58,954 nucleotides of DNA from a virus. The stretch covers positions 1 to 58,954 of the IMG/VR virus record IMGVR_UViG_3300044997_000299; one strand, 5' to 3'. A program made the position numbers and the translations under genes. Positions 19,304-56,184 of this stretch are shown here, one piece after another. Below the pieces are notes generated by a model. The model was not told the origin of the DNA. It saw nothing but the letters and a program-made list of their open reading frames with translations, and ran no database searches. Every line of letters starts with the position of its first letter. The stretch's first letter is position 1.

Positions 19304-19765
19304 TTAATATGTATGCAATATATCCTCTGGATTATTGATTGTTGCGATGATTTCATCATCGTTTAAAATTCGAACTTCTCCGCCATCTATTTTGAAACGG
19401 CTTCCTGCATATCTTCCAAAAATGATCCATTGATTTTCTTTACACCACGCACCCAATGGAAATTTTTTTCTATCTCTGTAACAAAGAGATCCCATTTTTA
19501 AAACTAAACCTACAACTGTAGTTTGTTGAATTGTGGATTGTGTTACATCAGAATAAATTATTCCACCTTTAGTTTTTTGCGGACCAGAATATGGAAGAAC
19601 TAAAATTCTCCAACCTGTAGGTGTAGGTAATTTATCAATTAATTTTTCATCAAGAGATGATGAATCGAGATAGAGTTTTTCTACCTCTTCCTTGGTCTTA
19701 TATGCATTTAAGAGACCGTTTTCTTTCGAATCAGTCTCGGGCGCCTGAGGCGTTGTCGTCGTCAT
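19304..19765 (-). CDS. groES: GroES-like co-chaperonin (Cpn10)
   Basis: This 153-aa protein has a variable 48-residue N-terminal extension, then a Cpn10 domain. PTPTGWRILVLPYSGPQKTK leads into the mobile loop around 64-73 (KTKGGIIYSD), where the hydrophobic tripeptide should contact GroEL. It is followed by VVGLVLKMGSLCYRDRK, GAWCKENQWIIFGRYAG and EVRILNDDEIIATI. Known phage GroES homologues (such as T4 gp31) replace host GroES so that large capsid proteins can fold. The place next to the scaffold and capsid genes fits that role. Confidence 0.88.
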   Translation of the reverse strand: MTTTTPQAPETDSKENGLLNAYKTKEEVEKLYLDSSSLDEKLIDKLPTPTGWRILVLPYSGPQKTKGGIIYSDVTQSTIQQTTVVGLVLKMGSLCYRDRKKFPLGAWCKENQWIIFGRYAGSRFKIDGGEVRILNDDEIIATINNPEDILHTY

Positions 19766-29758: not shown

Positions 29759-30046
29759 TTAGTGTTGTGTTGTTTGCCGATTAGCCATGTCCCTTTGTAC
29801 GTTAAACTTGTCCGCCAAGTCTTGAGATAATTCACGTCCGAAGTTAGCTATTTTCAAGTCACTCTGATTCGCGATAATAAATTCAAATATCTTCGAATCA
29901 AGATAACTAGCTAATAGTTGCCAATCGATAAATTGTATTTTGTTTTTAAAAGTATCGATTTGTTTTTTTAACTCAATAATTATCTCATCACTACTTTTAT
30001 TTTGAGACACAATCTGGTTAAGTTTTTCTAATTCGAATTTTTTCAT
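29759..30046 (-). CDS. Early-region hypothetical protein, 95 aa
   Basis: A helical charged protein (MKKFELEKLNQIVSQNKSSD, later FGRELSQDLADKFNVQRDMA). Its ATG overlaps the stop of the 109-aa gene by four bases, forming a two-gene unit driven by the palindromic promoter at 30403-30430 and closed by the 29723 hairpin. No family is recognised. Confidence 0.65.
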   Translation of the reverse strand: MKKFELEKLNQIVSQNKSSDEIIIELKKQIDTFKNKIQFIDWQLLASYLDSKIFEFIIANQSDLKIANFGRELSQDLADKFNVQRDMANRQTTQH

Positions 30047-30372
30047 ATTAACTCCTTAATGTCATGAGTATATGAGGTTCGAATAGACTTTGTCGAGAAC
30101 TTTTTAAACAATTCCATATTGTCTTTTTTAAAGTCCTCTTGAGAAAAAATATTTATCTCTTTAACATCTTTGTTAATCGAATAAATAAATTTATCTTTTT
30201 GTATCGTTAGATTATTTGTTTTTAACAAATCAAAAAGTTGAACTAATTCTGGCTTGATAATTCTATTCCAGTCAGAATTTAACTCCGCTTTTTTTTCTAA
30301 CAAATCACACGCGCGAACTATCAACTGTTTATTTTTAGTTGATAATTCTATTTTTGTTTTTTGTTTTGTCAT
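30043..30372 (-). CDS. Early-region hypothetical protein, 109 aa
   Basis: I start this frame at ATG 30372 because AAAGGGAAAC lies at ribosome-site distance; an in-frame TTG ten codons upstream has none. The protein is helical and rich in Lys, Leu and Asn (TKNKQLIVRACDLLEKKAEL). Next comes an IRTSYTHDIKELI tail. It is the first gene of its unit. The function is unknown. Confidence 0.65.
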   Translation of the reverse strand: MTKQKTKIELSTKNKQLIVRACDLLEKKAELNSDWNRIIKPELVQLFDLLKTNNLTIQKDKFIYSINKDVKEINIFSQEDFKKDNMELFKKFSTKSIRTSYTHDIKELI

Positions 30373-30402
30373 TGTTTCCCTTTCATTAGTTATTAATGAC
30401 AA

Positions 30403-30430
30403 TAATTATCTTATATACATAAGATAATTA
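30403..30430. promoter_or_regulatory. Palindromic operator copy 1 (12-bp arms)
   Basis: TAATTATCTTAT and its exact complement flank ATAC, upstream of the 109-aa gene. The core TATCTTAT-ATAC-ATAAGATA is repeated in front of the next two upstream units. Read on the minus strand it includes TATAAGAT, usable as a -10. The perfect dyad suggests binding of a homodimeric regulator. Confidence 0.65.
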
Positions 30431-30599
30431 AAACAAGAAATATTTTTAATTATGTACAATTATTTTTTTACTGTTGCTTCTTTGCAACATTCATATCAAA
30501 TTTAAAAATCTAATGTTTAAAACCAAAACACTACCCTGCAACCAACTCCACCAGTTCCACCGTTGTCAGCTGCATCCCATCCGCTGCTTTAATAAATTA

Positions 30600-30635
30600 A
30601 TCACGGAACGGGAACAGGATGGGAAACGGGACGGG
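30600..30635 (+). repeat. G-rich repeat copy 1 (four GGG tracts)
   Basis: ATCACGGAACGGGAAC is followed by GATGGGAAACGGGACGGG. Four GGG tracts have loops of 8, 4 and 2 bases, so the plus strand could fold as a G-quadruplex with one long loop. The first 16 bases are identical to copy 2 at 31101. It lies downstream of a minus-strand early gene. Confidence 0.7.
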
Positions 30636-30674
30636 ATTAGAGAAGAAGTAAAATTAAAAATAAAAGTAAAAGCA

Positions 30675-30705
30675 ATTGGCCTGCTGTGGTAAACAACAGG
30701 CCAAT
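30675..30705 (-). terminator. Rho-independent terminator of the 77-aa gene unit
   Basis: ATTGGCCTG pairs with CAGGCCAAT (nine pairs), with a further partial stem inside. On the minus strand it is followed by TGCTTTTACTTTTATTTTT, a good U-rich tract. It lies 27 bases downstream of the stop at 30732. Confidence 0.75.
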
Positions 30706-30731
30706 CACTGCAAGGATTGAAATCCAAAACA

Positions 30732-30965
30732 TTAAACCACTACTTCAATCCAAGTATCATTCCTTAAAACTTTTTTAACTTGATTGATGTAAACTGATCC
30801 GGCCTCATCGAACAAACCAACCTCTGACCCTTTACAGTCAACTAAGATTGTCTGTTTAAGACCGCGACCTTGTTTCGGTGACTCCAAAAGAACGCCGGAA
30901 GTTTCAAGACCTAACTGATTTGTTTTTACTTTATCACCTTTTTTTAACTCTATTGCTTTTATCAT
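30732..30965 (-). CDS. Early single-gene unit, small beta-barrel-like protein, 77 aa
   Basis: The protein (MIKAIELKKGDKVKTNQLGL, then GVLLESPKQGRGLKQTILVD) has the KKGDKV turn and alternating strands of a small SH3- or KOW-like barrel. A strong ribosome site (AAAGGAG) precedes ATG 30965. It forms a complete unit of its own, with a palindromic promoter upstream and a terminator downstream. The function is unknown; a host-RNA or protein binder is possible. Confidence 0.68.
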   Translation of the reverse strand: MIKAIELKKGDKVKTNQLGLETSGVLLESPKQGRGLKQTILVDCKGSEVGLFDEAGSVYINQVKKVLRNDTWIEVVV

Positions 30966-30983
30966 AGTGCTCCTTTTGTTTGT

Positions 30984-31003
30984 TATCTTATATACATAAG
31001 ATA
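30984..31003. promoter_or_regulatory. Palindromic operator copy 2
   Basis: TATCTTAT-ATAC-ATAAGATA, eight-base arms, identical in the core to copy 1. It covers the -10 of the promoter for the 77-aa gene, so a bound dimer would block or recruit RNA polymerase. Confidence 0.65.
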
Positions 31004-31021
31004 GCTTATTACTGAAGTCAA
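30993..31021 (-). promoter_or_regulatory. Sigma70-like promoter of the 77-aa gene
   Basis: On the minus strand TTGACT (31016-31021) is 17 bases from TATGTA (30993-30998). A second, tandem TTGACT sits five bases further upstream. Spacer and flank (TCAG.AAT.A.CTATCT) are shared with the promoter at 32944. Confidence 0.6.
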
Positions 31022-31100
31022 GTCAAAAATAGAAAAAATTGCAGGGAGATCCAGGATGCGCTGGATGGTATTATTATTAACATCTGCAAACAAGTCACGC

Positions 31101-31124
31101 ATCACGGAACGGGAACGGGACGGG
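31101..31124 (+). repeat. G-rich repeat copy 2
   Basis: ATCACGGAACGGGAACGGGA continues CGGG. Three GGG tracts are at 3- and 2-base spacing, with a GG before. It runs directly into a very GC-rich hairpin. It is downstream of the 197-aa gene. Confidence 0.7.
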
Positions 31125-31141
31125 CGACCGTGGTCGCCCGT
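31120..31141 (-). terminator. GC-rich hairpin after the 197-aa gene
   Basis: ACGGGCGACC and GGTCGCCCGT form a ten-base-pair stem around two bases, eleven bases from the stop at 31153. The minus strand continues CCCGTTCCCG rather than U, so it is not a standard intrinsic terminator. It still stands out in this AT-rich genome. Confidence 0.5.
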
Positions 31142-31152
31142 GAACTTTTAAT

Positions 31153-31746
31153 TTAGCAAATTTTAAAACCGCCTGACTCTTCGGCAAACTCTGCGAACTC
31201 TTGAACGTTTTTTATATTAAACGGATAATCGCCAGTCCAGTCTTTTTTATTTTGTATTACGTTCCATTTTTCGTAATCTTCTTTAGGATAATCACGCGGA
31301 GCAATACCCATTCCATGCTTTTTTACCATTTCTTGATGGAACTTTTGCGCCTCTTCTTCAACTTTTTTGTTGTGTGCCTCTGCTTTCTTATAATCTGCCA
31401 TGTGTTGTTCGGCATACATTTTTGTATGTCCGACCTTAATTAAATGTTTTAACTGTTTAGCAATTTCTCTTGCAACAGTTTCATTTACCTTAAAACCACT
31501 ATTCTCGTGCCAGTAGTCTACATGTTCTTCTTCCACACAACCAGTGAACTCGATTATATAATTCGCAAGAGGTCTCCACCACCAAACATTATTGCGAAAG
31601 TAATAACCTTTGTTCTCTTCTTCAAACTTGTCCATCTGCTTGAAGTAATCGTCTTTTTCTTTTTCGGTTGCTGTGTTCCAGTCTATTTTAGGTTTCACAG
31701 AACCTTCTTTAATTTTCGGATTTAATCCGTACACGTCCATACCCAT
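31153..31746 (-). CDS. Conserved early phage protein MGMDVYG family, 197 aa
   Basis: The protein opens MGMDVYGLNPK and has NKGYYFRNNVWWWRPLANYI, GCVEEEHVDYWHENSGFKVN and a C-terminal VQEFAEFAEESGGFKIC. I recognise this type (VYGLNP, FRNNVWWWRPL, ENSG) as widespread in phages of many hosts, but no function is known. It has its own promoter with a palindrome and a GC hairpin behind it. The ribosome site is AAGGAGC. Trp/Tyr/His richness suggests a ligand-binding surface. Confidence 0.8.
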   Translation of the reverse strand: MGMDVYGLNPKIKEGSVKPKIDWNTATEKEKDDYFKQMDKFEEENKGYYFRNNVWWWRPLANYIIEFTGCVEEEHVDYWHENSGFKVNETVAREIAKQLKHLIKVGHTKMYAEQHMADYKKAEAHNKKVEEEAQKFHQEMVKKHGMGIAPRDYPKEDYEKWNVIQNKKDWTGDYPFNIKNVQEFAEFAEESGGFKIC

Positions 31747-31772
31747 GGTTGCTCCTTATGTTGTTTATTTAT

Positions 31773-31792
31773 TATCTTATATATATGAGATA
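31773..31792. promoter_or_regulatory. Palindromic operator copy 3 (one mismatch)
   Basis: TATCTTAT-ATAT-ATGAGATA, the same dyad as copies 1 and 2 with one T/G mispair. It overlaps the -10 region of the promoter for the 197-aa gene. Confidence 0.6.
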
Positions 31793-31805
31793 CTTTTAAA
31801 GTCAA
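31776..31805 (-). promoter_or_regulatory. Sigma70-like promoter of the 197-aa gene
   Basis: Minus-strand TTGACT (31800-31805) lies 16 bases from TATATA (31778-31783), or 18 from TATAAG. Transcription would begin near 31770 and give a leader of about 25 bases with AAGGAG before the ATG at 31746. Confidence 0.55.
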
Positions 31806-31925
31806 TTAACTTTTTAGTTGTATTTAAAATAAATCATATTAGTCCTCTCAATGCAGGAATTTCCGCACCTTTTTCCGATGCAGCTACCTTCAGGATGGTG
31901 AACTTCTCTTTGATTAATCAAGACT

Positions 31926-31958
31926 ACGGGAACGGGACGTGGGATGCGGGAACGGGAC
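31926..31958 (+). repeat. G-rich repeat copy 3, canonical G-quadruplex motif
   Basis: Five GGG tracts at 31928-31956 are separated by loops of 3, 4, 4 and 3 bases, satisfying the classical G-quadruplex rule on the plus strand. It contains ACGGGAACGGGAC twice with small changes. It lies between two minus-strand genes. Confidence 0.78.
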
Positions 31959-31994
31959 TACATCAACAAAATCAACAGAAGCAGCAGAGCTACC

Positions 31995-32024
31995 TGCCCT
32001 GGTACTGTGAACAGCAGCAGGGCA
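31995..32024 (-). terminator. Possible hairpin terminator
   Basis: TGCCCTG pairs with CAGGGCA across a 16-base loop that can itself form CTG/CAG. It is about 50 bases after the stop of the 32-aa ORF. The following minus strand is only moderately U-rich, so efficiency is uncertain. Confidence 0.4.
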
Positions 32025-32050
32025 AGTAATAATAGTAACAACCAAAACAT

Positions 32051-32069
32051 GATGCGGGAACGGGATCAG
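32051..32069 (+). repeat. G-rich repeat copy 4 (short)
   Basis: GATGCGGGAACGGGATCAG, two GGG tracts. It shares GATGCGGGAACGGGA with copy 3, so it looks like a truncated copy. It lies just after the stop of the 32-aa ORF. Confidence 0.6.
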
Positions 32070-32076
32070 CTTTTGT

Positions 32077-32175
32077 CTATTTTAAATTAGGCCTTGTAAC
32101 TCTATCTCTAATAGTTCCTGCAAACTCAGGATAAAGAATCGCAATGAGTGCAGGAACTATTATTAATGTCCACAT
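32077..32175 (-). CDS. Tiny chimeric membrane peptide, 32 aa
   Basis: The peptide is MWTLIIVPALIAILYPEFAG followed by TIRDRVTRPNLK. Residues 2-18 are a hydrophobic helix. The last part, RDRVTRPN, is encoded by a 25-base segment (32086-32110) identical to the C-terminal codons of the 100-aa gene (32621-32645) in the same frame. ATG 32175 is one base after the stop of the 79-aa gene, with AAAGGT nearby. It could be a real small gene built on duplicated DNA, or a relic. Confidence 0.5.
   Translation of the reverse strand: MWTLIIVPALIAILYPEFAGTIRDRVTRPNLK
32086..32110. repeat. 25-bp direct repeat, copy A
   Basis: ATTAGGCCTTGTAACTCTAT and the next five bases (CTCTA) are identical to 32621-32645. 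Flanking bases on both sides partly agree, indicating a local duplication of about 30-40 bases that has begun to diverge. Confidence 0.85.
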
Positions 32176-32176
32176 G

Positions 32177-32416
32177 TTACGCTACCTTTTTCCGATGACC
32201 AAACAAATCTAAGATGTGTGTATCCAGAATTTCCCACGAGATGCCAACATTTGCATCATGATACTTCAAACACAAATCAAGAACTTGACGGCATTCCTCC
32301 TTGTTTAGTCTGATATTTATGTTTTGGGCTTGTTCCTTAACGTCTTCGACATTCCACAAAATGGAGATGTGATCATCATCAACCCAACCCCACTTCGGTA
32401 ATTTTTTCTTTCTCAT
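32177..32416 (-). CDS. Small hypothetical protein, 79 aa
   Basis: A charged helical protein (MRKKKLPKWGWVDDDHISIL, then NIRLNKEECRQVLDLCLKYH, DANVGISWEIL). It sits two bases downstream of the 59-aa gene and immediately before the 32-aa peptide. It is similar to small phage proteins with a DANVGI(S/N)WE motif. The role is unknown. Confidence 0.65.
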   Translation of the reverse strand: MRKKKLPKWGWVDDDHISILWNVEDVKEQAQNINIRLNKEECRQVLDLCLKYHDANVGISWEILDTHILDLFGHRKKVA

Positions 32417-32418
32417 AA

Positions 32419-32598
32419 TTAAAACCTAATTGGTTCAGCTTTTCTAAAATCGTCTTCAAGAAAAATTGGCTCTCCTGATATTTCATAGCCCGCTTGTTCT
32501 ATTAAAATTTTTTTAGCCATTCTTTCATTTTTTGCATAGATCTTATATTGCATAGTTGCAGGTATATCGTATACAAAAAGTTTATTTTTATTTTTCAT
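32419..32598 (-). CDS. Small hypothetical protein, 59 aa
   Basis: The frame starts MKNKNKLFVYDIPATMQYKI, continues YAKNERMAKKILIEQAGYEI and ends SGEPIFLEDDFRKAEPIRF. ATG 32598 is one base after the stop of the 100-aa gene, and the TAA at 32419 is two bases before the next ATG, so it fills the gap perfectly. Predicted strand-helix-strand pattern. No family is recognised. Confidence 0.68.
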   Translation of the reverse strand: MKNKNKLFVYDIPATMQYKIYAKNERMAKKILIEQAGYEISGEPIFLEDDFRKAEPIRF

Positions 32599-32599
32599 T

Positions 32600-32902
32600 T
32601 TAATATTTTAATTTAATTTGATTAGGCCTTGTAACTCTATCTCTACCAGTTTCATAAAACAAAGTATCATGAAGTTTCCATTTTTTAAGATGACGAGCTT
32701 CGTTGGCCACAGTCCCAAAACCACGGCGCTGAGTTCCTGATCTTATCTGCACCCACATCTTTTCGTTTACATTACCTTCAGTAAACCATACGTAAACAAA
32801 ATTTTTAAAGTCCTTTAATAGTTCTTGTTTTTTTATTTTGAAGTAAGTTTCTTTACCGTGCTCTTTGCACGTATAAATCATATTTTCTTTCGGCTTCTGC
32901 AT
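32600..32902 (-). CDS. Early-region protein, 100 aa
   Basis: A basic protein (MQKPKENMIYTCKEHGKETY, then NFVYVWFTEGNVNEKMWVQI and RSGTQRRGFGTVANEARHLK). The ending is GRDRVTRPNQIKLKY, part of which is duplicated downstream. A strong ribosome site (AAAGGAGC) and a near-consensus promoter (32944-32972) precede it, so it heads a four-gene unit. The function is unknown. Confidence 0.7.
   Translation of the reverse strand: MQKPKENMIYTCKEHGKETYFKIKKQELLKDFKNFVYVWFTEGNVNEKMWVQIRSGTQRRGFGTVANEARHLKKWKLHDTLFYETGRDRVTRPNQIKLKY
32621..32645. repeat. 25-bp direct repeat, copy B
   Basis: The partner of 32086-32110, lying within the 3' coding end of the 100-aa gene (codons for RDRVTRPN on the minus strand). 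It is probably the parent copy, since it is inside the longer gene. Confidence 0.85.
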
Positions 32903-32943
32903 CGTGGCTCCTTTTGTTAATTGTTAAAGCAAACTGTCCCATA

Positions 32944-32972
32944 CATATAAGATAAGTAATTCCTAATGTCAA
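32944..32972 (-). promoter_or_regulatory. Near-consensus sigma70 promoter of the 100-aa gene unit
   Basis: On the minus strand TTGACA (32967-32972) is 17 bases from TATATG (32944-32949). The spacer ends in TATCTTAT, the left half of the palindrome found complete at three other early promoters; the right half is lost here (ATGGGACA). Confidence 0.7.
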
Positions 32973-33101
32973 GTATAATTTTAAAATATTTTTCTACTAC
33001 GCCACAGATTGTGACGCACCGACCACAGACCTTGGTGAGCAGCATGCTACCCTGGTGAAGTAGAATCCTGATCCGTGATTCGATGTTTGTGGATCTTGGC
33101 T

Positions 33102-33131
33102 ACGGGACGGGAACTAGAAACGGGAATGGGA
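33102..33131 (+). repeat. G-rich repeat copy 5
   Basis: ACGGGACGGGAAC, then AACGGGAATGGGAG: four GGG tracts with loops of 2, 10 and 3 bases. It lies about 105 bases downstream of the stop of the nuclease gene (33236) and before the next unit's promoter. Confidence 0.65.
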
Positions 33132-33235
33132 GCTTAAAAATGGTAGCCCAACGGACACTAAACAGGAGCTAATTATTTAGAGGATGTCGAGCTACCGACC
33201 ACAAATATAATCATCATGGGATGTGATGTCAACAA

Positions 33236-33667
33236 TTATTTTTTATTTGTTTTTGAACTTGCATCCTGGTGCCCTGAAGTAGATGCCTGATGGGTGATTA
33301 TCTTATTTAAAACCGCGGTCCATGAAACGGGGTGCGGGAAATGGGAAACGGGAAGCGTGAATAACGGATCAGGGTGCAAGCAAGAATTGTAGTCATAAAG
33401 TTTTACGGCCCTCAGCCTGAGGTCGAAATTTAAGATAAAAACTCTGCCACCAGCACTACCGCGTTTTAAAATCCACGCTTTTTGATATTTAGTTAATGAA
33501 GTTTGTTTTCTCTTTTTTACCTTCAACTCGAGCCAAAATTCAGTTCCTCGATAACATCCATTGACATCGGGAATGCCAAGTCCAACATTAGTTTCGATTC
33601 TTTGAAAGTGTACGTTTGGCAACGCTTTTTTTATTTTTTGGTATAGCTTCGATTCTTCTTTTTGCAT
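33236..33667 (-). CDS. VRR-NUC-type PD-(D/E)XK nuclease
   Basis: This 143-aa protein has QRIETNVGLGIPDVNGCYRG with E25 and D34, then FWLELKVKKRK with E47-L-K49, the VRR-NUC arrangement of the PD-(D/E)XK fold. Family members cut branched or single-stranded DNA in recombination and replication. I start at ATG 33667, not at the TTG one codon upstream. The last 45 codons are Pro/His/Ser-rich and overlap a G-rich repeat (33325-33357), so the C-terminus looks extended by inserted repeat DNA. It overlaps the metallopeptidase gene by 80 bases. Confidence 0.8.
   Translation of the reverse strand: MQKEESKLYQKIKKALPNVHFQRIETNVGLGIPDVNGCYRGTEFWLELKVKKRKQTSLTKYQKAWILKRGSAGGRVFILNFDLRLRAVKLYDYNSCLHPDPLFTLPVSHFPHPVSWTAVLNKIITHQASTSGHQDASSKTNKK
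33325..33357 (+). repeat. G-rich repeat copy 6, canonical G-quadruplex motif inside a gene
   Basis: GGGG-TGC-GGG-AAAT-GGG-AAAC-GGG spans 33329-33352 on the plus strand, a classical G-quadruplex pattern. Unlike the others it lies in coding DNA, where the minus strand encodes LPVSHFPHPVS near the C-terminus of the nuclease. Confidence 0.78.
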
Positions 33668-35684: not shown

Positions 35685-36211
35685 GTGGTTAAATGCTCAA
35701 TCATATTATTTTTAGCAATGAGCTTACAAATCATTATAAAATCTTTCAAATTCAAATTATTTTTCATGCTATTAATAATAGCACAGCAAAATACAAGGTT
35801 ACCATCTATGTAGGGTTTTGTACTATCAATCCGATCAATAGAAATATTATATAAAGTTTTACCAACACCTAACGTGTGCGTCATTTCAATTCCAGAGTAC
35901 GGACACCGCATTCCAAATTTTTGATATTGTTCTTGCCAAACATCTAAAAACTCACTTAATGAAATTAAACATTCGGCTCTTTTTGAATTTTTACGTTGTC
36001 TATTTAATCCTTGATAAGTTCGTCTTACAAAAGCAATTGAATTCAAAGACCATCTTTGTTTTTGTTCCTTATTTTTACAATCCTTACACCAAGAATCAAG
36101 GGTTTCTCGATCACCTCTTTTATAAAAAAGTGTTGATAATTTTTTTTGTTTGCATTTTGGACAATTTTTATAAGAAGTTTCCTGTGCCGTTGTCAATGTT
36201 TCTTCGTTCAT
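35681..36211 (-). CDS. HNH endonuclease with N-terminal zinc ribbon
   Basis: The 176-aa protein has a zinc ribbon (C17-x2-C20 and C42-x2-C45) joined to an HNH-like nuclease. The nuclease has MRCPYSGIEMT around C103, then NISIDRIDS (D126, D129), DGNLVFCCAIINSMKN with N138 and N147. This is the DRIDS...GN...N layout of phage HNH enzymes, some of which are free-standing homing nucleases. It overlaps the next gene by 44 bases. A role in host DNA degradation or mobility is possible. Confidence 0.8.
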   Translation of the reverse strand: MNEETLTTAQETSYKNCPKCKQKKLSTLFYKRGDRETLDSWCKDCKNKEQKQRWSLNSIAFVRRTYQGLNRQRKNSKRAECLISLSEFLDVWQEQYQKFGMRCPYSGIEMTHTLGVGKTLYNISIDRIDSTKPYIDGNLVFCCAIINSMKNNLNLKDFIMICKLIAKNNMIEHLTT

Positions 36212-36515
36212 TGTATTTTTTTCGCCAGTTAATGTAATTAATTTGTTCTTTAGTGAAATAAATTTGTTCGTTGTCGACCATTTTAAGATATTTTTCTCTA
36301 ACTGTTTTATCGTTTAAATCTGCTAAGTTACAAATGATCTTAAAGTTTTCACTATTATTTATAAACCACAAGTGAGCTTGATATTTAAACATAATTAACG
36401 ATCGTTCCATTCCGGGATAAATAACATCCTCGAATGCTCGTTGAATTACTGCTCTCCAAAGTTTTGTTTCTGGTAAGACTTCGTCTTCGTAAATTTCTGT
36501 TTTTAGCTCCTGCAT
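36168..36515 (-). CDS. Conserved phage protein with HTH-like C-terminus, 115 aa
   Basis: The protein has TKLWRAVIQRAFEDVIYPGM, IMFKYQAHLWFINNSENFKI and ICNLADLNDKTVREKYLKMV. The stretch W.....S..F..IC..A.L....VR..Y is conserved in many phage proteins and looks like a helix-turn-helix. It probably binds DNA as a regulator or replication factor, but this is inferred. Confidence 0.72.
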   Translation of the reverse strand: MQELKTEIYEDEVLPETKLWRAVIQRAFEDVIYPGMERSLIMFKYQAHLWFINNSENFKIICNLADLNDKTVREKYLKMVDNEQIYFTKEQINYINWRKKYNERRNIDNGTGNFL

Positions 36516-36902: not shown

Positions 36903-37080
36903 TGTCCGTGATTCGTGTTTCTTGAGTCGTTTTCCGTGAGTCTAGGTGTGATGTACACTTGGGGCAATTTATAAAGTTATTTAAGTCCTTGTACAAGAAA
37001 AAAATTGAAGGATAAAAACCTTGTTTTTTAATATAATTATTACCCTTACAAACTGTGCAATTATTTTGATTTTTGGCCAT
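36895..37080 (-). CDS. Zinc-ribbon mini-protein, 61 aa
   Basis: From ATG 37080 the protein is MAKNQNNCTVCKGNNYIKKQ and later NFINCPKCTSHLDSRKTTQE. Two CxxC pairs 35-40 residues apart form a rubredoxin-like zinc knuckle. A longer frame from 37107 would overlap the RHH-like gene more and has no ribosome site. The last codons include a TCACGGA word also seen in the intergenic repeats. It may bind nucleic acid or a protein partner. Confidence 0.65.
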   Translation of the reverse strand: MAKNQNNCTVCKGNNYIKKQGFYPSIFFLYKDLNNFINCPKCTSHLDSRKTTQETRITDNA

Positions 37081-37276
37081 TTTTATGTTCCTTAAAGATT
37101 TTTTCAAGGTAGGCCTCTGGACTCATTTTTTTTAAATTTGCACGTCTTTCTATTTCTTTATCAACTAATAAAGCTATAAAAGCTGCAGGGTTACGATACT
37201 CTTTATCGCAAAGCGCTAATAATTTATCATAGCTTGATTTTCTAACCGCAACTGACTTCCAGTTTTTTATGTCCAT
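37061..37276 (-). CDS. Ribbon-helix-helix-like small protein, 71 aa
   Basis: The segment WKSVAVRKSSYDKLLALCDK, then EYRNPAAFIALLVDKEIERR has the strand-helix-helix pattern of RHH regulators (VAVR strand, KLL helix, AFIALLVDKEI helix). A dimer of this kind would fit the dyad operators at 30.4-31.8 kb, but no link is shown. Its ATG is directly after the stop of the lipoprotein gene. Confidence 0.6.
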   Translation of the reverse strand: MDIKNWKSVAVRKSSYDKLLALCDKEYRNPAAFIALLVDKEIERRANLKKMSPEAYLEKIFKEHKNGQKSK

Positions 37277-38403: not shown

Positions 38404-38687
38404 TATTTTTTTATTGAATTAATAAATTTTCTATAAACACTTGCTGCTGAAGTTTTACCCATAACTCTTGCTCTTTGTTCCATGGCGATAGCCGCTTGTA
38501 TTTTATGTGCATGTGTTTTACCACTATTTTTTATTTTAGATACGCTTTTTTTAGCGTCCGCTAAAGTTGCAAATTTTAATCCCCTAATTGTCCCTTTGGG
38601 ATTTTCATCTGTGTACAAATCTGAGTGTTTTTTTGATTTAGCTGGTTGTCCAGGTTTTCTAGGAATTCTTTTCATTGCATTTTCCAT
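38403..38687 (-). CDS. Basic phage protein with HAHKIQAAIAMEQRA motif, 94 aa
   Basis: The protein is rich in Lys and Arg: RIPRKPGQPAKSKKHSDLYT, GTIRGLKFATLADAKKSVSK, then IKNSGKTHAHKIQAAIAMEQ and RARVMGKTSAASVYRKFINS. The last part, K.HAHKIQAAIAMEQRA, is a conserved element I know from phages and giant viruses without a settled function. It may be a small DNA-associated protein. It overlaps the 73-aa gene by 16 bases. Confidence 0.7.
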   Translation of the reverse strand: MENAMKRIPRKPGQPAKSKKHSDLYTDENPKGTIRGLKFATLADAKKSVSKIKNSGKTHAHKIQAAIAMEQRARVMGKTSAASVYRKFINSIKK

Positions 38688-38893
38688 AAATTAATTATTT
38701 TATTTGTTTGATCTAATAATTCATTAAATTTTTCAATTGTCGTATCAAAAGTCATTGAAACTTTTCTGTGGTTCACAAACATTGAAATTGTTTTTTCTTT
38801 ATTATTAAATTCTACAGAAAAAGACTCAATACTCAATGGATTAAGTTTAATTAATTCCCTTGTATCTAACTTAAATTCAGTAGTTACATTCAT
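38672..38893 (-). CDS. First gene of the small-gene chain, 73 aa
   Basis: MNVTTEFKLDTRELIKLNPL, SIESFSVEFNNKEKTISMFV, then MTFDTTIEKFNELLDQTNKI. It has alternating strands and a terminal helix. ATG 38893 is only nine bases from a TATATT -10, so the transcript should be nearly leaderless. It heads the run of mini-genes down to 34 kb. No family is recognised. Confidence 0.65.
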   Translation of the reverse strand: MNVTTEFKLDTRELIKLNPLSIESFSVEFNNKEKTISMFVNHRKVSMTFDTTIEKFNELLDQTNKIINLWKMQ

Positions 38894-38901
38894 ATCCCAT
38901 G

Positions 38902-38929
38902 AATATATAAATTAAGAAGATAATGTCAA
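38902..38929 (-). promoter_or_regulatory. Leftward promoter of a divergent pair
   Basis: Minus-strand TTGACA (38924-38929) is 16 bases from TATATT (38902-38907). It starts the mini-gene operon with almost no 5' leader. It is 28 bases from the rightward -35, so the two could compete or share a regulator. Confidence 0.65.
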
Positions 38930-38957: not shown

Positions 38958-38986
38958 TTGACAAACTATCCCATAATATCTACTAA
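38958..38986 (+). promoter_or_regulatory. Rightward promoter of a divergent pair
   Basis: Plus-strand TTGACA (38958-38963) is 17 bases from TACTAA (38981-38986). The predicted start site coincides with the ATG at 38993, which implies a leaderless mRNA. Confidence 0.6.
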
Positions 38987-38992
38987 TACCTC

Positions 38993-39250
38993 ATGAAATT
39001 ATATCGTTTCATTGCACGTTATGCAGGGCAACGTATAATAATAGACGTTAAAGCACATAACGATGATGAAGCTAAGGTTAATTTCATAAATGGGTTAAAG
39101 CAAGGCGGAGGAACGTGGAGAGATGAAAATATGTATTCTCCTTCCAAAGTTTTCATAACTTATGAAGAAATAAATGATGATAGAAACGTTACAGTCTCTG
39201 TTACTAAAAAAGATCAGCTTGGAATCCAAGTGGAACCAATCTTATCTTGA
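38993..39250 (+). CDS. Rightward small protein, 85 aa
   Basis: MKLYRFIARYAGQRIIIDVK, AHNDDEAKVNFINGLKQGGG, then KVFITYEEINDDRNVTVSVT. It has a strand-rich N-terminus and an AHNDDEA helix. It is one of only three plus-strand genes, driven by the divergent promoter and probably leaderless. It may be a small regulator or inhibitor; no family is recognised. Confidence 0.72.
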   Translation: MKLYRFIARYAGQRIIIDVKAHNDDEAKVNFINGLKQGGGTWRDENMYSPSKVFITYEEINDDRNVTVSVTKKDQLGIQVEPILS

Positions 39251-54754: not shown

Positions 54755-56184
54755 TATGCAAATTTTTCTAATTCAGCCATTTGTTTGTAAAAAAATTGAG
54801 CACCTAAATTTCTTTGTTCTTCTTTAGATTTACCCCCCATTAATTTACCAGCACCAAGGACTGATTTAGATTTTGTAACAAACTCACCATCTGCTAGTTG
54901 AGCTAACATGGTGTCTTTATTTCCGCTTCCTTTACCAGTTTCATCTCTGACTAATTTACCGGAAGTTCTTTTGTAATTCATTTCATCATTTTCATTTCTA
55001 ATTAATTTTGAGGGTAATACATCAACCACGTCACCGCTCATAAATGCTTTTGGTGGTTCATTTACTGACCTTGCTTGTATTAATTCTATTAATCTTTGTA
55101 TATATTCTGGTGTATTAGGAGCCTTTGGTACACTTACATCGCTTTCACCAACAAGTCCTAGTATGCCTTTTAAATCATTTATTGGCATTTTAACATCATT
55201 TGATAAATTATTTAATATTTTTTTAGCCTGATTAATGTCAGCAATAGATAATCTATCTGTGTCTTTCATTTCTTGCGCAAATTTTATAGCAGTATTATTT
55301 GGGTCTGATTTATATTCCAAAATATATTTTCTTTTTAGGGCCTCTGGCAAATTTTCAGCAATAGTGTCAATTCCCAATGACATTGGTTCAGTTTCAGTTT
55401 GCAAAGATTCACCTTTTGATGGTTGCGGTAAAAATCTATTTTTAGCCATCGCGTACAAACTACTTATTGGCGATGAGGGTGTATTTATGGCCATTGCTGA
55501 TTGGTTCATTAAATCATCTGGTGATGCTAGACCACCTTCTTGCATTCCGCTGTAAGGAGATCCTTCTGGATATTTAGATGGATCTGGTCCGTATCTGCCA
55601 GAGAATGGTTGAAACATTCCAGGATCTGCTGCATAGAATCTATTAAATCCAGGGTACTTTGGTTGAGGTGCAGGTGTTGGCTTGAAAGCTCCAGCAGCAT
55701 ATAATCCTGCTCCTAATGCCCCAGCTCCTAATAAAACTTTTCCCTTATCATATTCTTTACTTGGTAAAATTTTACCAGCTTCATCTGTTTTTCTAAAAAA
55801 GTCTAATCCTTTATTTATTGCTTTACTTCCTTGCTCAAATGCATCACTTAATCCTTTTCCAAAAGAAAAAGAAGGAGAACCTTGAACACTTTGTTGAAAC
55901 TGCATGTAGTCACCTGCGTCATACTGCATTGGTAATTCTTTTCTAGTTGCAGCTAATCCCGCTTCTTGTGCTAATACTTCTCGTCCAACATTACTTCCTA
56001 CTTGACTTAGATCATCTATACCAGGAATTGTAGATATACCTTCTTGTGCTCCAGCAGAAGCTCCTTGAGTTGCATAAGCTAAAGCTGCATCGCTAATAGT
56101 GCTTTTAAGTAAATCTGAACCTCTTTTACCTTGTAATGCGTTGATACCTCCAGATATCAAAATCGACGCTGTAATCGGATCCAT
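54754..56184 (-). CDS. Virion protein with DxMLAxLxDGEFV motif, 476 aa
   Basis: The N-terminus is small-residue rich (MDPITASILISGGINALQGK). A hydrophobic helix follows near 152-166 (LLGAGALGAGLYAAG), then a Pro/Tyr-rich linker with GMQEGGLASPDDLMNQ. A C-terminal element DTMLAQLADGEFVTKSKSVL, known from many phage tail and virion proteins (M.A.L..GEFV), is present. It is probably an internal or tail-assembly component. No enzyme motif is seen. Confidence 0.62.
   Translation of the reverse strand: MDPITASILISGGINALQGKRGSDLLKSTISDAALAYATQGASAGAQEGISTIPGIDDLSQVGSNVGREVLAQEAGLAATRKELPMQYDAGDYMQFQQSVQGSPSFSFGKGLSDAFEQGSKAINKGLDFFRKTDEAGKILPSKEYDKGKVLLGAGALGAGLYAAGAFKPTPAPQPKYPGFNRFYAADPGMFQPFSGRYGPDPSKYPEGSPYSGMQEGGLASPDDLMNQSAMAINTPSSPISSLYAMAKNRFLPQPSKGESLQTETEPMSLGIDTIAENLPEALKRKYILEYKSDPNNTAIKFAQEMKDTDRLSIADINQAKKILNNLSNDVKMPINDLKGILGLVGESDVSVPKAPNTPEYIQRLIELIQARSVNEPPKAFMSGDVVDVLPSKLIRNENDEMNYKRTSGKLVRDETGKGSGNKDTMLAQLADGEFVTKSKSVLGAGKLMGGKSKEEQRNLGAQFFYKQMAELEKFA

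Follow-up and report, generated by a model that had tools for sequence, protein, structure and literature searches.

The window, by which we mean the whole stretch of 58,954 nucleotides of viral DNA analysed here, belongs to a relative of the Pelagibacter phages HTVC023P and HTVC027P and carries four early units on the minus strand. Unit 1 (31958-32902) consists of genes at 32600-32902, 32419-32598 and 32177-32416 together with a small membrane-protein ORF at 31958-32050, and unit 2 (31153-31746) of a single 197-aa gene (MGMDVYG). A 77-aa gene makes up unit 3 (30732-30965), followed by another small membrane-protein ORF (30637-30732) with which it shares an overlapping stop and start, while unit 4 (29759-30372) has two genes, 30043-30372 (ATG start at 30372) and 29759-30046.

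Each unit is preceded by its own palindromic dyad, three of them perfect and one a single base off the symmetric consensus TATCYYAT-N4-ATRRGATA. The dyad of unit 4 lies at 30403-30430 with 12-bp arms, and its core (30407-30426) reads TATCTTAT-GTAT-ATAAGATA on the minus strand; those of units 3 (30984-31003) and 2 (31773-31792, with one mispair) lie downstream of TTGACT boxes at 31016-31021 and 31800-31805, respectively. All three positions are as an initial sequence-only reading had given them, and it had rightly placed the dyads upstream of separate early units. The fourth site was described there as a half-site at 32944-32972; it is in fact a near-complete 20-bp dyad at 32935-32954 (TATCTTAT-ATGT-ATGGGACA on the minus strand), the one that is a base off consensus, downstream of TTGACA at 32967-32972. 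A clear TTGAC promoter is thus present in three of the four units, the -35 of unit 4 being weak, and, judged by their position relative to TTGAC, the dyads overlap the region contacted by RNA polymerase. The motif search that had been proposed for the 20-mer, allowing up to 3 mismatches, found three places only in the window and none in 100 shuffles; with the consensus, the three perfect sites compare with 0 in 300 shuffles.

The idea that every unit also ends in its own hairpin is unsupported as stated. The sole long terminator-like hairpin (30671-30709) and a second one at 31979-31998 fall inside the two small ORFs, each with relatives encoded by other genomes, while a third, at 31120-31144, lacks a T tract on the strand that is transcribed. 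The description of the units as interchangeable cassettes is partly supported: some gene families vary between genomes, and others are core. The 197-aa gene, for example, has a promoter of the same type in HTVC023P, L010, L031, L092 and L107. Homologous counterparts of unit 4 occur in L010 and L107, and in the MGLDQYA gene family the operators in front differ in arrangement from lineage to lineage.

Throughout the HTVC023P/HTVC027P family, early promoters repeatedly carry the half-site ATRRGATA. Across 1.65 Mb of related sequence there are 12 perfect and 16 one-off dyads (0 and 1.3 in shuffles), and half-sites are enriched in promoter windows, for example 5 against 0.22 in the window phage and likewise 5 against 0.22 in HTVC027P; in DSL-LC04 and the L134-L167 lineage, enrichment in promoter windows is little or none. 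Only promoter-anchored searches resolve this signal, as unrestricted clustering of palindromes within each genome drowns it in chance families. An exact 20-mer scan of IMG/VR was too strict, returning 3 contigs of which 2 are the same virus as the window, and a nucleotide search of phage records gave no match. The genome is AT-rich (32% GC) and sites in near relatives are shared by descent, so one could suppose a functionless repeat that arose by chance or was inherited. However, such sites are absent from the shuffles and are kept at about 60% protein identity (L006), where the flanking sequence has diverged. The sites also show symmetric, compensating changes, and this explanation is close to excluded.

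The arrangement of the half-sites depends on lineage. In phages near the window they are inverted with a 4-bp gap (12 bp spacing; 19 pairs against 0.27 expected), in HTVC027P-like phages they stand back-to-back, and other lineages have direct repeats. The element is always near TTGAC and often overlaps the -10, as would be expected of a core-promoter feature, such as a motif read by a modified RNA polymerase with no separate regulator. We consider this quite improbable, since the element occurs in both orientations and three arrangements, and since the spacing of a pair is fixed within a lineage whereas its distance to TTGAC varies; this variable register to the -35 points to an operator rather than to part of the core promoter.

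Further half-sites in the window extend the set. One (ATGGGATA, 38893-38900) lies in the minus-strand promoter (38893-38929, TTGACA at 38924-38929) that heads the operon with the ribbon-helix-helix (RHH) gene, and another (TATCCCAT, 38967-38974) in a divergent plus-strand promoter (38958-38974, TTGACA at 38958-38963), downstream of which is an ORF (38993-39250, 85 aa) that is kept in relatives. A third, CATCCCAT at 33216-33223, is one base off and belongs to the minus-strand promoter of a candidate small RNA (33204-33232, TTGACA-17-TATATT). The data therefore support a regulon that is family-wide and broader than first proposed, taking in the RHH operon, the divergent gene and the candidate small RNA.

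Which protein would bind these sites? The best candidate is the 71-aa, Arc/CopG-type RHH protein encoded at 37061-37276 on the minus strand, which is conserved throughout the phage family. Its gene is the first after a dyad promoter in L053, L058, L059, L074 and L086, and also after such a promoter in HTVC027P, where the half-sites are weaker. A half-site promoter heads the RHH operon, which contains other genes as well, in the window, L010, L110, L111, L118, L120, L027, L151, L161 and HTVC023P; none was found in the 2.2 kb preceding that gene in L107, L092, L113 and the L134-L167 lineage. The assignment to the RHH fold is predicted from model shape. The AF2 model (pLDDT 85.8) has an extended N-terminus followed by helices 13-26 and 30-48, and so the strand-then-two-helices layout, although it is a monomer and the N-terminal strand would form only in a dimer. 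Against the PDB it aligns with Arc, CopG, AmrZ, CopASO and TacA at target-normalised TM scores of 0.73-0.85, but the E values are above 0.5 and no fold match reaches significance by E value. The protein has no sequence match in Pfam or among PDB sequences and no RHH-family profile match, while 4 of its 19 relatives match the RepB-RCR_reg profile weakly (E 0.003). Because the RHH fold group is diverse in sequence, the absent profile match only lowers the claim of membership. The private operator-promoter regulon of the sequence-only reading, with the RHH protein as candidate binder, is supported by conservation, position and the half-sites at the RHH operon promoter, and was drawn too narrowly.

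Another phage protein could bind the operators instead, most plausibly the helical 115-aa protein encoded at 36168-36515. Most of the family keeps its gene together with that of the RHH protein (immediately downstream of it in HTVC027P), and since it lies in the same operon, the argument from autoregulation applies to it too. However, its confident five-helix model has no convincing DNA-binding relative, it has no family matches, and 023Pt_psg01, which retains the RHH gene, yielded no copy of it; we give it a small chance. The earlier suggestion that it is an HTH-like binder found no independent evidence, and the HTH reading lacks structural support.

We favour, with somewhat more belief than doubt, a model in which the dyads are operators of a phage regulon and the RHH protein brings the early phase to an end by repressing both the early promoters and its own. 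On DNA entry, host RNA polymerase would transcribe the several small early units from their strong sigma70-type promoters, and the RHH protein would come from an operon that has the ATRRGATA half-site at its promoter. Its dimers would then bind half-sites where these overlap the spacer, the -10 or the start region, closing the early promoters as well as their own. Certain RHH proteins are activators, and gp33 and gp34 of HTVC027P, whose promoters have half-sites, peak at 6-9 h; these promoters might thus be activated, or switched at a middle stage, by the RHH protein or some other factor of the phage. The sites nevertheless cover the spacer, -10 or start region rather than preceding the -35, and with -35 boxes already near consensus this reading is unlikely. 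The regulator could also come from the host, the phage having captured a SAR11 operator, as SAR11 is the host of all cultured relatives. This is very improbable, as scans of 79 genomes, from the family that carries the SAR11 16S probe sequence, revealed a single perfect dyad.

The candidate small RNA (33139-33199, minus strand) is about 60 nt long, with an 11-bp stem and the loop UAGCUCCUGUUU; it is conserved and, unexpectedly, preceded by a promoter of the operator-bearing type. An Rfam search with it returned no known RNA. The loop shows complementarity to the ribosome-binding sites of genes for head morphogenesis, for the most part where the genome itself has the RNA; the matches in the window lie at 19765 (GroES-like), 19285 and 18245, and also at 56184. 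Pairing with the Shine-Dalgarno sites of the early units themselves was considered and dropped because the best matches fall in late genes. One could tentatively speculate about a two-tier timer, in our opinion possible and rather doubtful, in which the RHH protein controls both the early units and a small RNA whose loop blocks translation of late head genes: late translation would be blocked while the RNA is being made, and released once the RHH protein closes the promoter of the RNA. As a separate observation, the CCCGTTCCC repeats have a putative reading as Rho sites.

SAR11 is the commonest bacterium in the ocean, and the DNA switch seen here probably belongs to a control circuit not described before, in the phage group that is the most abundant one known for this host; the RHH protein probably turns the switch off. 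Together, an operator shared across the family, a candidate for its repressor and a putative small RNA make a concrete circuit that can be tested. Moreover, the operator flags small genes under early control, which would aid in finding host-takeover genes, and the half-sites, rearranged among lineages that all retain the candidate regulator, offer a natural series for studying repressor-operator coevolution.

Several known systems invite comparison. The Arc repressor of P22 is a small RHH protein whose ant operator is an AT-rich dyad with half-sites about 11-12 bp apart, overlapping the promoter. Our candidate is likewise a small phage protein, predicted to be of the RHH type, its model resembling Arc chains in shape, and the dyad over promoters is likewise short and AT-rich. 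In contrast, Arc acts at one promoter, whereas here several dispersed early promoters of a lytic phage group are involved, the half-site arrangements vary by lineage and there is no sequence match to Arc. The plasmid proteins CopG and omega are autoregulated RHH repressors, and the binding of omega to direct or inverted repeats resembles the arrangements across this phage family; they serve plasmid copy-number or partition control rather than phage early genes, and again no sequence match was found. The small phage RNAs lambda OOP and P22 Sar act on phage mRNAs as cis-antisense, and the candidate in the window may similarly pair with phage messages. Unlike them, it would work in trans, a single loop serving several ribosome-binding sites. 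HTVC023P and HTVC027P, of the same phage group, both carry the operator half-site as well as the RHH gene (gp13 and gp21, respectively), and differ from the window in that our model of the small RNA finds no match in either. Both are reported to have early genes of unknown function and to rely on host RNA polymerase throughout (PMC12753301, PMC9599517); the main texts of these papers describe no promoter, operator or RHH regulator.

The 58,954 bases of this IMG/VR virus record encode a terminase and a DNA polymerase closest to those of HTVC023P (68% and 59%) and HTVC027P (65% and 50%), two phages whose host is SAR11 strain HTCC1062; by these proteins, 023Pt_psg01 and DSL-LC04 are also among the closest relatives. 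The sequence-only reading had placed palindromic dyads before the minus-strand early units at 30403-30430, 30984-31003 and 31773-31792. Indeed, a search for the 20-mer with up to three mismatches matches these three places only, and nothing in shuffled sequence. A fourth site, described as a half-site at 32944-32972, is present but is fuller than that: it is the dyad TATCTTAT-ATGT-ATGGGACA at 32935-32954, recognisable as such because relatives show two variable positions per arm. At these positions the left arm takes pyrimidines and the right arm purines, so that the consensus is TATCYYAT-N4-ATRRGATA. Read along the coding (minus) strand, the first three dyads are TATCTTAT-GTAT-ATAAGATA twice and TATCTCAT-ATAT-ATAAGATA once. 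In 1.65 Mb of related phage loci, many of them fragmentary and mutually related, the consensus has 12 perfect and 16 one-off sites, versus 0 and 1.3 in shuffles. Most lie directly after TTGAC and directly before a start codon, with gene starts assigned by simple rules. TTGAC and the dyad are separated by about 5, 13-14 or 18 nt in the window's lineage, and the dyad therefore overlaps the spacer, the -10 or the start region in turn. It is an operator, not a part of the promoter.

The half-site is common to the whole family, while its arrangement differs between lineages. The window/HTVC023P lineage has inverted pairs at 12 bp (19 cases versus 0.27 expected). Pairs of the HTVC027P lineage are either direct or back-to-back, the latter at 6, 7, 9 and 14 bp (for example, AATAGGATATCCTATATT), and the few cases from the L134-L167 lineage are direct repeats such as ATGGGATATGATAAGAC. 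Promoter windows are strongly enriched in half-sites in the window, L010, L107, L121, L059, HTVC023P and HTVC027P; the L134-L167 lineage and 023Pt_psg01 show weak enrichment or none, and DSL-LC04 shows none. Homologous genes are found behind differing arrangements. For example, the operator of the MGLDQYA gene is TATCTTAT-N4-ATGGGAGA in L018, TATAGGATAATCCTATA in L086 (protein 76% identical) and ATGGGATATGATAAGAC in L134; thus, the arrangement here goes with the lineage of the phage rather than with the gene. Judged from these sequences, this would be the pattern expected of sites co-evolving with a phage-encoded binder. That the dyads instead belong to a host regulon and are bound by a host regulator is unlikely: across about 80 Mb from 79 genomes of a family that we take to be SAR11, on the strength of a 16S probe sequence, a single perfect dyad occurs, and the profile of the putative ribbon-helix-helix (RHH) protein discussed below finds only two partial matches. 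The early regions of L121, L127, L059 and L086 also carry promoters that face each other (TTGAC...GTCAA) at a distance of about 30 bp; a half-site lies between the two, and they serve genes on both sides.

Other features mark the window's early region. Two related hydrophobic ORFs of 30-31 aa (..FTxxGQ[LV]..LL..) lie at unit ends on the minus strand (30637-30732 and 31958-32050), with relatives in L010, L107 and L092; a G+C hairpin inside each might also serve as a terminator. A different ORF pair (..IAFIFRA..) occupies similar places in HTVC023P. Repeats of the GGGAACGGGA type on the plus strand, which read CCCGTTCCC in transcripts, are concentrated in the spacers that follow early units, 10 of the 13 window matches falling within 30604-33353, possibly a Rho-type or other terminator region. 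A 53-nt direct repeat (ATTAGGCCTTGTAACTCTATCTCT..., 79% identity) stands near gene ends in unit 1 (32086-32138 and 32621-32673).

The candidate regulator is the 71-aa RHH-like protein (37061-37276, minus strand); 54 open frames in the loci encode relatives, among them HTVC023P gp13, HTVC027P gp21 and one in 023Pt_psg01. In its model, the N-terminus is extended and helices span 13-26 and 30-48 (pLDDT 85.8). Comparison with the PDB lists Arc, CopG, AmrZ, CopASO, TacA and Reg576; their target-normalised TM-scores reach 0.85, none being significant by E-value, and the viral-model list has several entries named RHH, CopG or repressor. Pfam profiles do not match the window protein; RepB-RCR_reg is matched weakly by 4 of 19 relatives. 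The strongest link to the operators is gene location. The RHH gene is first after a promoter bearing a dyad or half-site in L053, L058, L059, L074 and L086, and first after a promoter with one-off half-sites in HTVC027P. Similarly, a TTGAC promoter whose half-site is perfect and often lies at position 29 heads the RHH-containing operon in the window, L010, L110, L111, L118, L120, L027, L151, L161 and HTVC023P. No half-site promoter lies within 2.2 kb upstream of the RHH gene in L107, L092, L113 or the L134-L167 lineage. At the third position of the strand predicted to face DNA, most of the inverted-dyad lineage has R or K, with D, S, A or P found elsewhere, a difference that is suggestive only. 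The HTH-like protein (36168-36515), also proposed as a binder, is conserved and shares the operon with the RHH gene, and the location argument applies to it too; its confident helical model finds no DNA-binding relative. In the window, the half-site of the RHH-operon promoter (38893-38929, minus strand) runs right up to the start codon of the first gene (38672-38893), and this gene may therefore make a leaderless message; several relatives have a similar layout.

A further promoter (33204-33232, minus strand; 11 of 12 consensus bases) carries CATCCCAT, a near match to the half-site. Instead of a gene, what follows it is a stretch of some 60 nt folding as an 11-bp stem (z -3.7). This candidate small RNA (33139-33199, minus strand) combines a conserved structure, its own operator-like promoter and a loop complementary to late-gene ribosome-binding sites. 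Both its position and its structure are conserved, with 99% of cells paired, and its covariation score is matched by 1 of 500 shuffles, which ignore relatedness, with slid versions far lower. The covariance model detects it in lineages outside its building set (L028, L033/L034 and L118/L121) and finds no such RNA in HTVC023P or HTVC027P; Rfam holds nothing resembling it. Read across the loop, GCUCCUGUU is invariant in nine aligned sequences, one of which has a U-to-C change further on. In the window, L017, L020 and L023, the GroES-like gene has the loop complement AAACAGGAGCUA at its ribosome-binding site; the sequence at this site is different in HTVC023P, HTVC027P, L058 and L086. The window loop pairs 13 nt with the leader AAACAGGAGCUAA, and the L121 loop, UAUAGCUCCUGUUUUUU, can pair 17 nt with the leader AAAAAACAGGAGCUAUA; thus, loop and target differ in a matching way. 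Among leaders, AGGAGCTA occurs in 21 of 347 in RNA-bearing genomes versus 3 of 490 in those without (p 5e-6, the genomes being related), an excess we take as indicative only. Three control Shine-Dalgarno variants show no difference between the two sets and a fourth, ATAGGAGC, a weak one. There is no excess in the leaders of HTVC023P and HTVC027P, and no significant one in those of the partial genome L010.

The sites are present, conserved, set in definite arrangements and positioned at promoters, and half-sites stand at the RHH operon in many lineages. We propose that host RNA polymerase would start the early units, and that the RHH protein would accumulate and cover the promoters of all of them and of its own operon. 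This occupancy would end the early phase, with the candidate small RNA as a possible second tier of control. It is also possible that early promoters are activated rather than repressed. Searches of open-licence papers found neither this operator nor an RHH regulator described for pelagiphages, which is not proof of novelty. In HTVC027P, RNA-seq has described early genes of unknown function and the use of host RNA polymerase (PMC12753301).
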